In this document: positions 7,801 through 42,302 of the stretch, one piece after another
Numbering within the stretch: position 1 is the first letter of the stretch
How the letters are laid out: every line of letters begins with the position of its first letter
From: Methanobrevibacter olleyae
Lineage (GTDB): Archaea; Methanobacteriota; Methanobacteria; Methanobacteriales; Methanobacteriaceae
Direction: 5' to 3'
NCBI RefSeq assembly: GCF_900114585.1
Contig: NZ_FOTL01000018.1
Location: 1-44,647, forward strand
Length of the DNA stretch: 44,647 nucleotides
The notes under the pieces: model-generated
What the model saw: only the letters and a program-made list of their open reading frames with translations
Told to the model about the DNA's origin: nothing
Database searches by the model: none
Position numbers and translations under genes: made by a program

Positions 7801-8181
7801 ATGGAAAAGGTTTTAACTTTAAAATATAGTTGTAAAGACTGTGGGTTTCAATGGAATAATCCCAAAAAAGAATACACTGCCTGTCCAGACTGTGAATCTG
7901 AAAATATTGAAATAATTAAAGGTAGCTTGAACGGTAATTTTGATGATAAGAATAAATCAATAGAACCATCAAAGCTTCAAATACCTAATGTCGGAGAAAC
8001 TCCAGATTTTCCTTTAAGTGAAAGAAGGTCTTTCGGAGGGCCTGGAGGCGGTAGAGGACCATCAAAAGCATGTGAATGTCCTAAATGCGGTTATACCGCA
8101 CCAAAAATTAGGGGATTTCCATGTATAAATATGAAATGTCCTGAATGTGGAACACCACTATGTGGATTTAAACATAAATGA
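7801..8181 (+). CDS. Double zinc-ribbon protein, first of a duplicated pair
   Basis: A 126-residue protein with an N-terminal rubrerythrin-like zinc ribbon (YSCKDCGFQW, then CPDCES), a linker, a Gly/Arg segment (FGGPGGGRGPSKACECPKCG) and a second ribbon-like site (CINMKCPECGTPLCG). Pairs of CxxC suggest two bound metals. The C-terminal CPKCGY...G.PC...CPECG pattern recurs at the ends of small archaeal ferredoxin or NifX-associated proteins; its exact job is unknown. The start follows AAGGTTTTGTTAAT. The next gene repeats its leader and first 23 or so codons almost base for base, so a recent tandem duplication is clear. Confidence 0.75.
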   Translation: MEKVLTLKYSCKDCGFQWNNPKKEYTACPDCESENIEIIKGSLNGNFDDKNKSIEPSKLQIPNVGETPDFPLSERRSFGGPGGGRGPSKACECPKCGYTAPKIRGFPCINMKCPECGTPLCGFKHK

Positions 8182-8207: not shown

Positions 8208-8507
8208 ATGGAAAAGGTTTTAACTTTAAAATATAGCTGTAAAGACTGTGGCTTCACCTGGATTACATTAAATGGTGAACATAGCCTCTGTCCAAAATGT
8301 CATAGTGAAAATATTGAATTTTTAGAGGAAGTAAAAGATTTAGATATTGATGCAATACTTGCTCATAATAAAAGAAGTGGGGGATGTTGTGGCTCTGCAC
8401 GTGGAAAAGGCCCTTTAACTTGTGGTAAACCTATGCCTGACCATGCTAATCCAAATATGCCTCACCACAGACATGATAAGAAAACATGCTGCGGTTATAA
8501 TGAATAA
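8208..8507 (+). CDS. Zinc-ribbon protein, duplicated paralogue with His/Cys-rich tail
   Basis: A 99-residue paralogue of the preceding gene, 26 bases downstream. Its first ribbon is YSCKDCGFTW, then CPKCHS. The C-terminal half is different: GGCCGSARGKGPLTCGKPMP is followed by DHANPNMPHHRHDKKTCCGY, rich in Cys and His, and looks metal-binding. The leader (TATAAGGTTTTGTTAATATG) and first codons match the upstream gene nearly exactly, while the rest does not align well. That suggests either rapid divergence after duplication or grafting of a new tail onto a copied leader and ribbon. Possible roles are a metal chaperone or buffer, but this is not shown. Confidence 0.75.
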   Translation: MEKVLTLKYSCKDCGFTWITLNGEHSLCPKCHSENIEFLEEVKDLDIDAILAHNKRSGGCCGSARGKGPLTCGKPMPDHANPNMPHHRHDKKTCCGYNE

Positions 8508-8582
8508 TTAATGTTCATTGCCTCAAATTTTTATAATCTCTCCTTTTTTTTATTTTTTTTAATTTCATGGAATATTCTCATT

Positions 8583-8694
8583 TCATGAAATTTTTTTCTT
8601 TTTATTCTACTTTTTTTTTTTATCTGATTCCTATTTCTTCATGAAATTTTTTTTCTTTTTATTCTACTTTTTTTTTTTTATCTGATTCCTATTT
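8583..8694. repeat. 56-bp T-rich tandem duplication downstream of zinc-ribbon genes
   Basis: TCATGAAATTTTTTT, CTTTTTATTCTAC, a T11-T13 run and ATCTGATTCCTATTTC occur twice, starting at 8583 and 8639. The unit supplies repeated U-rich runs just after the operon and fits a transcription-termination region. The remainder up to 8877 is AT-rich leader of the next gene. Confidence 0.75.
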
Positions 8695-8877
8695 CAAATC
8701 AATTCTCCTATTTATCCCATATTTAAACAATAAATTATTTATTATAAAGCTAATATAAATTAAGTTATGAGATATATTAGTTAACTGTTAATCATTTGAA
8801 TTATTAAAATAGCTTAATAATTAAATTATATAGTTTGCTTAAATTATTTATATTATTTCTTTTTTGGAGGATTTTTA

Positions 8878-10023
8878 ATGAATAAAAGTGATTTGAAAAG
8901 AGACCATTATATGTTGAAAGGTCCCCTTGCTAAGCAAGGCTATGACTGGTGGTGGCATTCTTTAACTGCATATAACAAGGAAACTGGTGAACCAAGGCCA
9001 TTCTTTATAGAATACTTTGTATGTAACCCTGACCTTGCTGAAGATGAACCTACTTTAGGCCAAGACCCTAAAAACATTGAAGAAGGTAAAAAGCCTTCTT
9101 ACTGTATGCTAAAGGTGGGGGCATGGGGAAAGGATCCTAAACAGATTCATAATTTCTATTCTATGAAGGACTTTGAATGTGCTAGTGATAAATTAGATTT
9201 AAAAGTTGGGGAATATAGCTTAACTGAAACTCATATGACTGGATATTGCAAAGTTACAGAAGAAGAAGCTCGTGAACATCCAGAGTATATGTGTGATGCA
9301 GGAGAAATGAAATGGGATTTGGATATTGACAAACAAATCGCTTTTAATGTAGGTTATGGTGCCAATAGCTTCTTTAGAAAATTAAATGCATTTGAAATGT
9401 TTTGGCATGCTGAAGGAATCAAAACTCAATATAAAGGCACTATCGAAATGGATGGTGTTGAATATGAAGTTATCCCTGAAAAATCATTTGGCTATGCCGA
9501 TAAAAATTGGGGAGGGGATTTTACAAGCCCTTGGCTATGGATTTCCTCATCTAATTTAAGAAGTTTAATCACAGGCAAGAAACTTAATAACTCTGCCTTT
9601 GAAGCAGGTGGTGGAAAACCTAAAGCATTTGGCATTTCCCTTCCTCGCAAATTGTTAATTGGTTTCTATTATGAAGGGAAGATGTATGAATACAACTTTG
9701 CAAGGTTCTGGAATAATGTTCATGTGGACTTTGGCTTTAAGGAAGGTGAAGAGCTAAACGAATGGTTTATCAACTGTAGTAATTGGAATAGTAAACTTGA
9801 ATTAAAATTATATTGTAAACGTGATGAAATGTTACTTTTCAATTATGAAGCACCTACTGGCAAAAAATTACACACCCGCCTTTGGAATGGTGGAAATGGC
9901 TATGGTGAAATTAAGTTAATGAAAAAGGATGGAACCTTGATTGACCATATAAAAATAGAAAATGCAGGTTGTGAATACGGAGAATATGATGATGATAGAA
10001 CTCATAATGTTATAGATAAATAG
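8878..10023 (+). CDS. Tocopherol-cyclase-like / AttH-lipocalin-like protein
   Basis: A 381-residue soluble protein without signal peptide, Trp-rich. GYDWWWHSLTAYNKETGEPR with FFIEYFV lies near the N-terminus, and SFGYADKNWGGDFTSPWLWI in the middle. The latter resembles the KNWG...W.W signature of tocopherol-cyclase-like proteins (plant VTE1, bacterial relatives) and AttH/carotenoid-hydratase lipocalin folds. Those proteins bind or modify hydrophobic prenyl compounds. A methanogen does not make tocopherol, so the substrate must differ; a prenyl lipid is a guess. GGAGGATTTTTA precedes the ATG. The next gene, 181 bases on, resembles phytol kinase, another tocopherol-pathway family. That strengthens the link but does not prove it. 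It could also be only a lipocalin-fold protein of unknown role. Confidence 0.5.
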   Translation: MNKSDLKRDHYMLKGPLAKQGYDWWWHSLTAYNKETGEPRPFFIEYFVCNPDLAEDEPTLGQDPKNIEEGKKPSYCMLKVGAWGKDPKQIHNFYSMKDFECASDKLDLKVGEYSLTETHMTGYCKVTEEEAREHPEYMCDAGEMKWDLDIDKQIAFNVGYGANSFFRKLNAFEMFWHAEGIKTQYKGTIEMDGVEYEVIPEKSFGYADKNWGGDFTSPWLWISSSNLRSLITGKKLNNSAFEAGGGKPKAFGISLPRKLLIGFYYEGKMYEYNFARFWNNVHVDFGFKEGEELNEWFINCSNWNSKLELKLYCKRDEMLLFNYEAPTGKKLHTRLWNGGNGYGEIKLMKKDGTLIDHIKIENAGCEYGEYDDDRTHNVIDK

Positions 10024-10050
10024 ATTTAAATCTATAGATTGAATTTTTCC

Positions 10051-10200
10051 TATCTTATCATTTATTCTTATGTTTTAATTTTAAGGGCAGATTCTGTGTT
10101 TTTTTATCTTATCATTTATTTTATGTTTTGATTTTTAAGCTTAGATGCTGTGTTTTTTTATCTTATCATTTATTTTATGTTTTGATTTTAAAGAGTAGAT
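10051..10200. repeat. 54-bp T-rich tandem repeat, three copies
   Basis: TATCTTATCATTTATT, then TTATGTTTT and a GATTCTGTG-like end recur at 10051, 10105 and 10159, with an exact 54-bp period. The last copy runs into the start of the kinase-like gene at 10205, which has only a weak ribosome site (GAGTAGATTATT). The array may combine the 3' end of one transcript with the leader of the next. Confidence 0.8.
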
Positions 10201-10204
10201 TATT

Positions 10205-10894
10205 ATGTTATGGACTGATATAATTACATTAATTATTGTTTATCTTTATGTTGTTATCATATTCTTATTGGCAGAGAAAGTCTTAAAGACTAAAGCTGAA
10301 GTATCTCGTAAGTTTGTTCATATTATGATTGGTAATATGATATTTGCTATGCCATTTTTCTCAGATTCTTCAATTGCATTCTGGTTTATTACATTGCCTG
10401 TAACAATTGCATTGTTTTTCTTAACTGATTATTCGCCAGTAACTATTCACAATAGTATAACTGAATCTGGTCATGCTTTAGGATTATTCTTTTATGCAGG
10501 AATATGGTCAATTTTACTTTTAATATTCCCAATATTGATTGACTCTAATTTACTTTGGATTGTAGCAATGGCTATCGTTCCTTTGGTATATGGTGATGGC
10601 TTTGCAGCTCTTGTTGGTGGAAAATGGGGTACCCTTAAATACCATATATTTGGTGGAGAGAAAACTCTTATAGGTTCTCTTGCAATGTTTGTAGTAACTG
10701 CAGTTCTTTCTGTATTTGTATGGGTTATTTATAGTGCTGTAGGTTACAATATTCCAGAACTTAACGTTTGGTATATCTTGATTATTTCTGCTATAGCAAC
10801 TGTTGCTGAAGCTATTAGTTATGGGGGAATTGATAATCTCACAGTTCCTTCTGTAACTGCAATTCTATATTATTTAGTTGCAAATTTCTTATAA
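10205..10894 (+). CDS. Phytol/dolichol kinase-like membrane protein (VTE5/SEC59 family)
   Basis: A 229-residue integral membrane protein with about seven helices. It carries the family landmarks: VSRKFVHIMIGN near residue 35, the nucleotide-site region VYGDGFAALVGGKWG with IFGGEKTLIGSLAMF, and ISYGGIDNLTVP near the C-terminus. Characterised relatives are CTP-dependent kinases of membrane alcohols: dolichol (yeast SEC59), phytol (plant VTE5) and diacylglycerol (DGK1). In an archaeon the likeliest substrate is a prenol such as geranylgeraniol, salvaged to prenyl phosphate for ether-lipid synthesis. It follows the tocopherol-cyclase-like gene on the same strand, and a DUF92/VTE6-like protein is encoded at 41604. 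A strong hairpin follows the stop codon directly. Confidence 0.7.
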   Translation: MLWTDIITLIIVYLYVVIIFLLAEKVLKTKAEVSRKFVHIMIGNMIFAMPFFSDSSIAFWFITLPVTIALFFLTDYSPVTIHNSITESGHALGLFFYAGIWSILLLIFPILIDSNLLWIVAMAIVPLVYGDGFAALVGGKWGTLKYHIFGGEKTLIGSLAMFVVTAVLSVFVWVIYSAVGYNIPELNVWYILIISAIATVAEAISYGGIDNLTVPSVTAILYYLVANFL

Positions 10895-41603: not shown

Positions 41604-42302
41604 TTACATCACCGAAACAATACCTATAATAGCTCCACAAATAGTGGCAAGTAAATTAACATGTTCATTGTTGATGTAATTTCTTCTTTCAAGAACTGCT
41701 CCAAGGATACTATCTATAAAACAGCCTATAGTTCCTGAAATTACTGAAATTTTAATCGCTATTAAAGGGTCTGGCAGTACTCCTAATAAAAATGAAGCAA
41801 TTCCAATTATTCCTGCACCTACAATTGCTGCTGAAGTTCCTAAGATTGATATTGCACCATCAGTTCCTGCAGGTACTTTTTTAAAGGTAGTTATTAAACG
41901 AGGCTCTTGAAGAACACCTATTTCACTAGCTAATGTGTCTGCTGTAGCTGTAGCTATTGCTCCGATAAATCCTCCAGCTAAAGGAAGATAATAACTTCCA
42001 AATGCTGCCATTAGAAAAGCCACTAATCCATTAGAGATTACATTTTTTGCAGTTCTAGTTTTTTCATATTGCCCTATTTCTTTTTTATAAGGTTTTGAAA
42101 AGCGTGTAGCAAGTATACTTAATATAAAAAATAGCACGATTAAAATAAACCAATGAACCCCTGCTGAAAAGATTATTATAATTCCCATAATAATCATTAT
42201 TAAGGAGCCTAGCATGTCTAAACTTTTCCTTTTATAACTTATTCCACCTAAAATAAACAGAAGTATTACATATCCCCAATTTATCATTAAAGTTTCTTGC
42301 AT
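41604..42302 (-). CDS. DUF92 (VTE6/TMEM19-like) membrane protein
   Basis: A 232-residue membrane protein with about six helices and the DUF92 signatures: RTAKNVISNGLVAFLMAAFG, GFIGAIATATADTLASEIGV, FKKVPAGTDGAISILGTSAA and GCFIDSILGAVLERR. The plant member VTE6 phosphorylates phytyl phosphate to the diphosphate, using CTP-type donors. In archaea, an equivalent step would return prenyl phosphates to GGPP for ether lipids. The first kinase of such a route could be the VTE5-like protein at 10205. That function is inferred. TGTGATTCT precedes the ATG at 42300-42302. Confidence 0.8.
   Translation of the reverse strand: MQETLMINWGYVILLFILGGISYKRKSLDMLGSLIMIIMGIIIIFSAGVHWFILIVLFFILSILATRFSKPYKKEIGQYEKTRTAKNVISNGLVAFLMAAFGSYYLPLAGGFIGAIATATADTLASEIGVLQEPRLITTFKKVPAGTDGAISILGTSAAIVGAGIIGIASFLLGVLPDPLIAIKISVISGTIGCFIDSILGAVLERRNYINNEHVNLLATICGAIIGIVSVM

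Follow-up and report, generated by a model that had tools for sequence, protein, structure and literature searches.

Tocopherol cyclases of photosynthetic organisms carry the motif YxEKNWG, and tocopherol-cyclase-like proteins of unknown function have been known in heterotrophic bacteria since 2016 (PMC4963081). A gene of this kind in M. ruminantium has previously been given the annotation of a tocopherol cyclase (PMC7772410). In plants, VTE6 is a phytyl-phosphate kinase; the enzyme genes named in the accessible part of the review that covers it are plant and cyanobacterial only (PMC9782597). Archaeal proteins of the SEC59 type are annotated as dolichol kinases, a SEC59-DUF92 fusion is reported in Methanosarcina barkeri, and archaeal DUF92 was tied to isoprenoid synthesis in 2015 (PMC5898192). 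The M. smithii gene msm_0078 is a putative dolichol kinase by name (PMC12134362). The malaria prenol kinase contains a clamp formed by Arg29-Lys30-His33 (PMC10849223).

The window analysed here, a stretch of 44,647 nucleotides from Methanobrevibacter olleyae, encodes a PF14249 protein (TocC) followed by a membrane protein (Kin). Its closest relatives suggest a host near the rumen species of Methanobrevibacter. Their positions, and that of a third gene of the same genome (TMK2), are given in Table 1. Upstream of TocC lie two HypA-like zinc-ribbon paralogues in tandem (7801–8181 and 8208–8507), which score below the cut-off of the HypA profile; several relatives of the same genus have one such protein or none at the corresponding place. 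Downstream of TocC, at a distance of 4.4 kb, the window has a methanogenesis marker 8 homologue (14377); in a Methanomassiliicoccaceae genome, the downstream distance from TocC to such a homologue is about 0.5 kb (L087:7681).

Table 1 Coordinates of the features discussed
Feature	Position	Strand	Description
TocC, 381 aa	8878..10023	+	PF14249 (tocopherol-cyclase-like); predicted AttH/CrtC/Diels-Alderase fold; gene of Bacillota origin
Kin, 229-aa membrane protein	10205..10894	+	Likely CTP-dependent prenol kinase (SEC59/VTE5 type), from model and sequence
TocC motif Y206-A-D-K-N-W-G212	9493..9513	+	Counterpart of the tocopherol-cyclase motif YxEKNWG
58-bp repeat, 2 tandem copies, directly before TocC	8582..8695	+	TRF score 214
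54-bp tandem repeat, 2.8 copies, occupying the TocC-Kin gap	10051..10200	+	TRF score 231
DUF92 (VTE6-type family), 232 aa	41604..42302	-	PF01940, TIGR00297; no specific tie to the TocC-Kin pair
TMK2, divergent thymidylate-kinase-family (PF02223) protein	G000:C30:12860-13444 (window genome, outside the window)		

The first-pass annotation had described the 381-residue protein as VTE1-like, which is borne out by a match of PF14249 (Tocopherol_cycl) to residues 113–368 (47.6 bits, E = 1.6e-12; the cut-off is 26.6 bits). This is the sole match of the family in the 2.12-Mb genome. Residues Y206, D208, K209, N210, W211, and G212 are invariant across 42 aligned sequences; A207 varies. The genome contains one UbiA-family match, for which the best model is the archaeal-type PRK12884 (330 vs 269 bits). 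As this only UbiA is of the archaeal type, a prenylquinol substrate is not indicated, and TocC is classified as a PF14249 homologue, not as a tocopherol cyclase.

For the AF2 model of TocC (pLDDT 89, pTM 0.89), Foldseek reported ten chains of the PDB with E ≤ 0.001, each of which belongs to the superfamily of AttH, kievitone hydratase, decalin synthases (Diels-Alderases), and 25-phosphosteroid lyase. With VIA, Z-scores of 19.3–23.1 were obtained for CghA, Fsa2, Phm7, AttH (2ich), kievitone hydratase, and 25-phosphosteroid lyase, and of at most 5.9 for all other structures listed. The lyase (9g2i) superimposes with a Z of 19.6 and an rmsd of 4.0 over 264 aligned residues. A D-x-x-W-G stretch is aligned between the two proteins, and their sequence similarity is insignificant (E = 0.79 over 29 residues). 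Of the two folds named for comparison in the first-pass annotation, that of AttH was recovered, within the AttH/CrtC-type superfamily; the VIA list contains no structure of a tocopherol cyclase, which has no bearing on the latter family. Since the chemistries of the superfamily include hydration, phosphate elimination, and cycloaddition, that of TocC is not readable from its fold.

Among the families of Pfam and NCBIfam, Kin matched none of a kinase or CTP-transferase at E ≤ 1. PF01148 touches 3 of 36 aligned relatives (best E 0.0031), the Kin of the window itself being without match, and searches of PDB sequences with a single sequence or a profile gave nothing at E ≤ 10. The top structural match of the AF2 model (pLDDT 88, pTM 0.86) is the CDP-DAG synthetase CdsA (4q2g; Z 9.8, rmsd 4.6, 164 aligned residues), with a Z lower than is recommended for folds built of helices. 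A Z of 6.9 was obtained with an archaeal lipid enzyme (5guf), which we take to be CarS. Foldseek gave no match to the model at E ≤ 0.001, the best being 4q2e at 0.11. Residues R35, H39, Y129-G-D-G132, K153, G157-S158, E202, G208, and D210-N211 are invariant in the 36 aligned rows and K36 is kept in at least 90% of them. Kin thus possesses an Arg-Lys-x-x-His clamp, R35-K36-H39, with the spacing of that in the malaria prenol kinase. In two Bacillota, the Kin profile detected homologues that are fused at the C-terminus to DUF92 (L251:1495-2946, L252:700-2145). Near the L252 fusion are genes for an NDK-domain protein and for undecaprenyl diphosphate synthase (L257). The earlier reading of the 229-residue protein as VTE5-like rests on the predicted fold, the clamp, and the DUF92-fused homologues, but not on any Pfam or NCBIfam family. 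From these features and the UbiA context presented below, Kin is probably a prenol kinase.

The gene pair was surveyed in 151 genomes of the phylum Methanobacteriota. TocC is present in 85 of them, including a remnant in G072, and Kin in 104, of which 102 were counted as strong; two Kin matches with E of about 1e-4 (G029, G037) were set aside. In 70 of the 73 genomes with both genes, TocC immediately precedes Kin on the same strand, counting for split genes the piece on the partner's contig. The adjacency, reported from the window alone in the first-pass annotation, is therefore conserved and not due to chance. Gaps range mostly from -11 to +17 bases, and the frames often abut or overlap; the gap in the window, with about 180 bases and the 54-bp repeat, is among the larger ones. 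A clearly more distant TocC (53–58% identical to that of the window) occurs with Kin in four genomes: it is adjacent to Kin in G067 and lies elsewhere in G087 and G118, while contig ends interrupt the locus in G073. TocC without Kin was found in Methanosphaera (nine genomes), G038, and G124; further genera of the order show the converse, Kin but no TocC. Linked-type Kin is intact in one genome where TocC has decayed to a remnant (G072:C4:41366-41473) and in one where it was not found (G057:C53). In the Methanosphaera group, the genes after the Kin-less TocC of G002 (L246:4603-6779) and G053 (L248:5199-7384) encode a 376-aa protein and an ABC-type ATPase of 344 aa, which by eye resemble a MacB/FtsX-type transporter.

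Fifteen of 20 TocC-bearing genomes searched (19 bacteria and one archaeon) gave no Kin match, so that TocC does not depend on Kin. Clustering of the neighbouring ORFs revealed no fixed neighbour of TocC in bacteria; outside Methanobacteriaceae, each cluster besides TocC occurs in at most five loci. A general link between TocC and Kin in bacteria was considered and rejected, as a Kin-like neighbour was found only in Fusibacter among 30 PF14249 loci, which include some two-piece or two-copy cases of one genome. The Fusibacter locus (L253:1441-3117) consists of a Kin-like gene and then a gene for a distant 324-aa PF14249 protein (58.5 bits), and forms a separate VTE5/VTE1-type neighbourhood.

DUF92 had been proposed as the third member of a prenol pathway. 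The gene at 41604 does encode a DUF92 protein, passing the cut-offs of both PF01940 (198.4 bits) and TIGR00297 (250 against 205.85). All three families are therefore present in the window, but the DUF92 gene is about 31 kb from the pair, a distance that is not conserved (about 450 kb from TocC in G051, for example), and most genomes have it at a great distance from Kin or on a different contig. DUF92 is found in 137 of the 151 genomes, with or without Kin. In those at least 95% complete, a set to which no contamination filter was applied, it occurs in 45 of 46 with Kin and 20 of 20 without (45/1/20/0; p = 1.0). DUF92 is rejected as the specific partner of Kin in Methanobacteriota for lack of co-inheritance across the 151 genomes.

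TMK2 tracks Kin instead. Across the survey, 99 genomes have both genes, three have Kin only, three TMK2 only, and 46 neither. For the 66 genomes at least 95% complete, the corresponding numbers are 46, 0, 0, and 20, that is, TMK2 in 46 of 46 genomes with Kin versus 0 of 20 without. A genome was scored as having TMK2 only if its match clearly exceeded those of canonical thymidylate kinases, and a short fragment at a contig edge in G124 was left out. The joint absences are scattered: they comprise all 20 Methanosphaera genomes (g3), all of g4, g6, and g8, four of the five of g16, and isolated genomes, for example G066 within g5. Among the 28 genomes with a Kin outside the TocC-linked type, TMK2 directly follows Kin in 26; the exceptions are G008, where they are 3.3 kb apart, and G014, where they are on different contigs. 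Against the dTMP kinase model TIGR00041, TMK2 scores 57.1 bits, below the cut-off of 83.25, compared with 164.1 for the canonical paralogue of the same genome. The canonical ISDR-S...YQ stretch is replaced in the TMK2 consensus. Co-inheritance, adjacency, and the lost dTMP kinase signature suggest tentatively, with less than even prospects, that TMK2 is the second kinase.

The same neighbourhood was found in a second phylum. The Kin profile matched 41 of 116 Thermoplasmatota genomes, and among the 20 best-matching loci fetched, TMK2 adjoins Kin in all 20 and a UbiA-family gene is nearby in 15, usually directly upstream on the same strand (Pfam was checked on two of these loci). In a first set of 20 loci fetched from Methanobacteriota, UbiA is divergently adjacent to Kin in eight. 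These shared neighbourhoods indicate that a UbiA-Kin-TMK2 gene set is common to the two archaeal phyla.

In a 42-row tree, methanogen TocC occupies three separate positions within Bacillota, one held by the main Methanobrevibacter/Methanosphaera clade, a second by G067 together with G087, and a third by a Methanomassiliicoccaceae genome. A single origin was rejected for the first two groups (AU p = 0.0017) and for all three (p = 5.9e-6); these p-values are optimistic, because the groups were named after the tree was viewed. By this phylogeny, archaeal TocC was acquired from Bacillota at least three times. The description of the genes as occurring in a methanogen is correct and understates the matter, TocC being a bacterial gene acquired several times. 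Two of the acquisitions ended directly upstream of Kin, the second, in G067, with TocC, Kin, and TMK2 in a row.

For the trees of Kin and TMK2, linked and non-linked groups were set beforehand by adjacency; for G057 and G072, in which TocC has been lost, Kin identity was used instead. TocC-linked Kin forms one clade spanning two genera (99/98.8), and monophyly of Kin within the genus of the window was rejected (p = 2e-4). The TMK2 tree follows genus (100/99), the linked grouping being rejected (p = 1.5e-5). In G030 and G051, CofH (named as in PMC12134362) abuts TMK2 where M. smithii-type genomes have CofH-Kin-TMK2. Most simply, a TocC-Kin cassette would have passed between the genera before the native Kin disappeared, which would imply that the linked Kin takes over the function of the old one. 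As Kin has moved away from TMK2, co-location of the two is dispensable. In M. smithii, a 2.9-kb circle with msm_0078 (the Kin gene), cofH, and comD is strongly enriched in extracellular vesicles, and one of its borders falls in the thymidylate kinase gene msm_0077 (PMC12134362). The latter is TMK2, and the Kin locus concerned is G020:C1:76336-77548 (L154). The published circle (76,619–79,634) spans the Kin of G020 (76,898–77,548), which we infer to be that M. smithii strain. Such a circle is a possible vehicle for the Kin cassette.

It is proposed, with a likelihood just short of even and from sequence and model comparisons, that TocC-Kin makes up half of a system for salvaging isoprenoid alcohols which, with TMK2, would feed ether lipids. 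Using CTP, Kin would form the monophosphate of a C20-type prenol, either geranylgeraniol or a chain related to it, TMK2 would put on the second phosphate, and the diphosphate would go to the UbiA-family prenyltransferase building archaeal ether lipids. A polyprenol (C55) may be the substrate of Kin instead of a C20 chain. TocC, as a β-barrel of the VTE1/CrtC/AttH superfamily, would work on the prenyl chain by hydration, dehydration, or isomerization at a tertiary carbon, and would deliver or adjust the alcohol consumed by Kin. Prenol salvage towards ether lipids, suggested in the first-pass annotation, is supported by the Kin-UbiA neighbourhood, the archaeal type of UbiA, and the bacterial Kin-DUF92 fusions. 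That TocC acts on the prenol side is doubtful, although two independent placements upstream of Kin and the Fusibacter locus point that way. A role as prenol supplier is weakly suggested by gene order and is weakened because Methanosphaera, like most of the 20 TocC genomes searched, has TocC without Kin. In a wider version, which is rather unlikely, TMK2 would be the missing soluble archaeal geranylgeranyl-phosphate kinase and UbiA-Kin-TMK2 a general salvage set, to which a bacterial VTE1/CrtC-fold enzyme would have been added at least twice in gut methanogens, letting them use scavenged, possibly plant-derived (phytyl) membrane chains.

Kin could also be a polyprenol (dolichol- or undecaprenol-type) kinase recycling a glycan carrier, with TMK2 an unrelated nucleotide kinase and TocC binding or protecting polyprenyl lipids. 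Methanosphaera has a pseudomurein wall, yet is without Kin; the conserved neighbour of Kin in Methanobacteriota and Thermoplasmatota is UbiA, and the perfect co-occurrence of Kin with TMK2 would be left without explanation. This makes a polyprenol kinase unlikely, despite the dolichol kinase annotation of SEC59-type proteins in archaea (PMC5898192) and of msm_0078 (PMC12134362), and despite the undecaprenyl diphosphate synthase gene near one bacterial Kin-DUF92 fusion. Another arrangement has Kin (VTE5-like) and DUF92 (VTE6-like) as the two salvage kinases and TocC as an extra step. It accords with the phosphorylation of phytyl phosphate by plant VTE6 (PMC9782597), with the Kin-like-DUF92 fusions of two Bacillota, and with the similar one of Methanosarcina barkeri (PMC5898192), but is improbable given that DUF92 is kept in every Kin-less genome at least 95% complete and is mostly remote from Kin.

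The remaining alternatives concern TocC. A kinase/lyase tandem has been proposed for steroids (PMC8449060), and by analogy with 25-hydroxysteroid kinase and 25-phosphosteroid lyase acting on sterol side chains, Kin would phosphorylate a prenyl-type alcohol from which TocC eliminates or rearranges the phosphate. The match of the model to 9g2i and the aligned D-x-x-W-G stretch agree with this. However, the match is at least as good for Diels-Alderases and hydratases (Z 20–23), the sequence similarity to the lyase is insignificant, and many genomes have TocC without Kin, which makes such a tandem very unlikely. TocC could instead be a true prenylquinol cyclase, or a stress or antioxidant protein acting on plant-derived gut quinols, its linkage to Kin being that of a hitch-hiking cassette without metabolic meaning. 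PF14249 membership, the near-intact YxEKNWG motif, and the mobility of the Kin locus on the vesicle-enriched circle of M. smithii (PMC12134362) would fit. Since the only UbiA is archaeal, a prenylquinol made by the plant route is not expected in the window genome, and two separate acquisitions of TocC landed upstream of Kin; this explanation is quite unlikely.

In the literature searched, part of it represented by partial texts, no earlier report was found of Kin-TMK2 co-inheritance, of repeated transfers of bacterial TocC, or of repeated TocC-Kin linkage, nor any earlier proposal of TMK2 as a prenyl-phosphate kinase. Neither the accessible text of PMC12134362 nor the listed entry of PMC1079889 proposes thymidylate kinase and dolichol kinase as a salvage pair in archaea. 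Among the matches listed for phytol, archaeol, and rumen literature, no title was relevant. With the conserved UbiA-Kin-TMK2 set, prenol salvage can be put to a direct test using two small proteins. If this set is fed by TocC, a lipid-salvage step of gut methanogens was taken from neighbouring Bacillota, and such salvage would bear on membrane building in rumen methanogens.

Compared with VTE1 and slr1737, TocC likewise passes the PF14249 cut-off and has a counterpart of their motif (Y-x-[ED]-K-N-W-G) in which the Glu is Asp, but its genome is without a dedicated aromatic prenyltransferase. It is of the same kind as the tocopherol-cyclase-like proteins of heterotrophic bacteria, the bacterial relatives retrieved being 53–65% identical; those described in the accessible text of PMC4963081 are from bacteria only, whereas TocC is found in methanogens, fixed beside the gene of a probable kinase. 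The fold of the TocC model is that of 25-phosphosteroid lyase, kievitone hydratase, and the Diels-Alderases CghA, Fsa2, and Phm7 (Z 19–23), but with 7–14% identity their chemistry is not transferable. The DUF92 protein at 41604 is related to VTE6 and COG1836 by its PF01940 and TIGR00297 scores and differs in that genes of its type are not co-inherited with Kin in Methanobacteriota. Kin resembles VTE5, FOLK, and PfPolK in its predicted CTP-transferase-like fold and RKxxH clamp; it differs from them in having no Pfam match and in its partner, which in Methanobacteriota is TMK2 and not VTE6.
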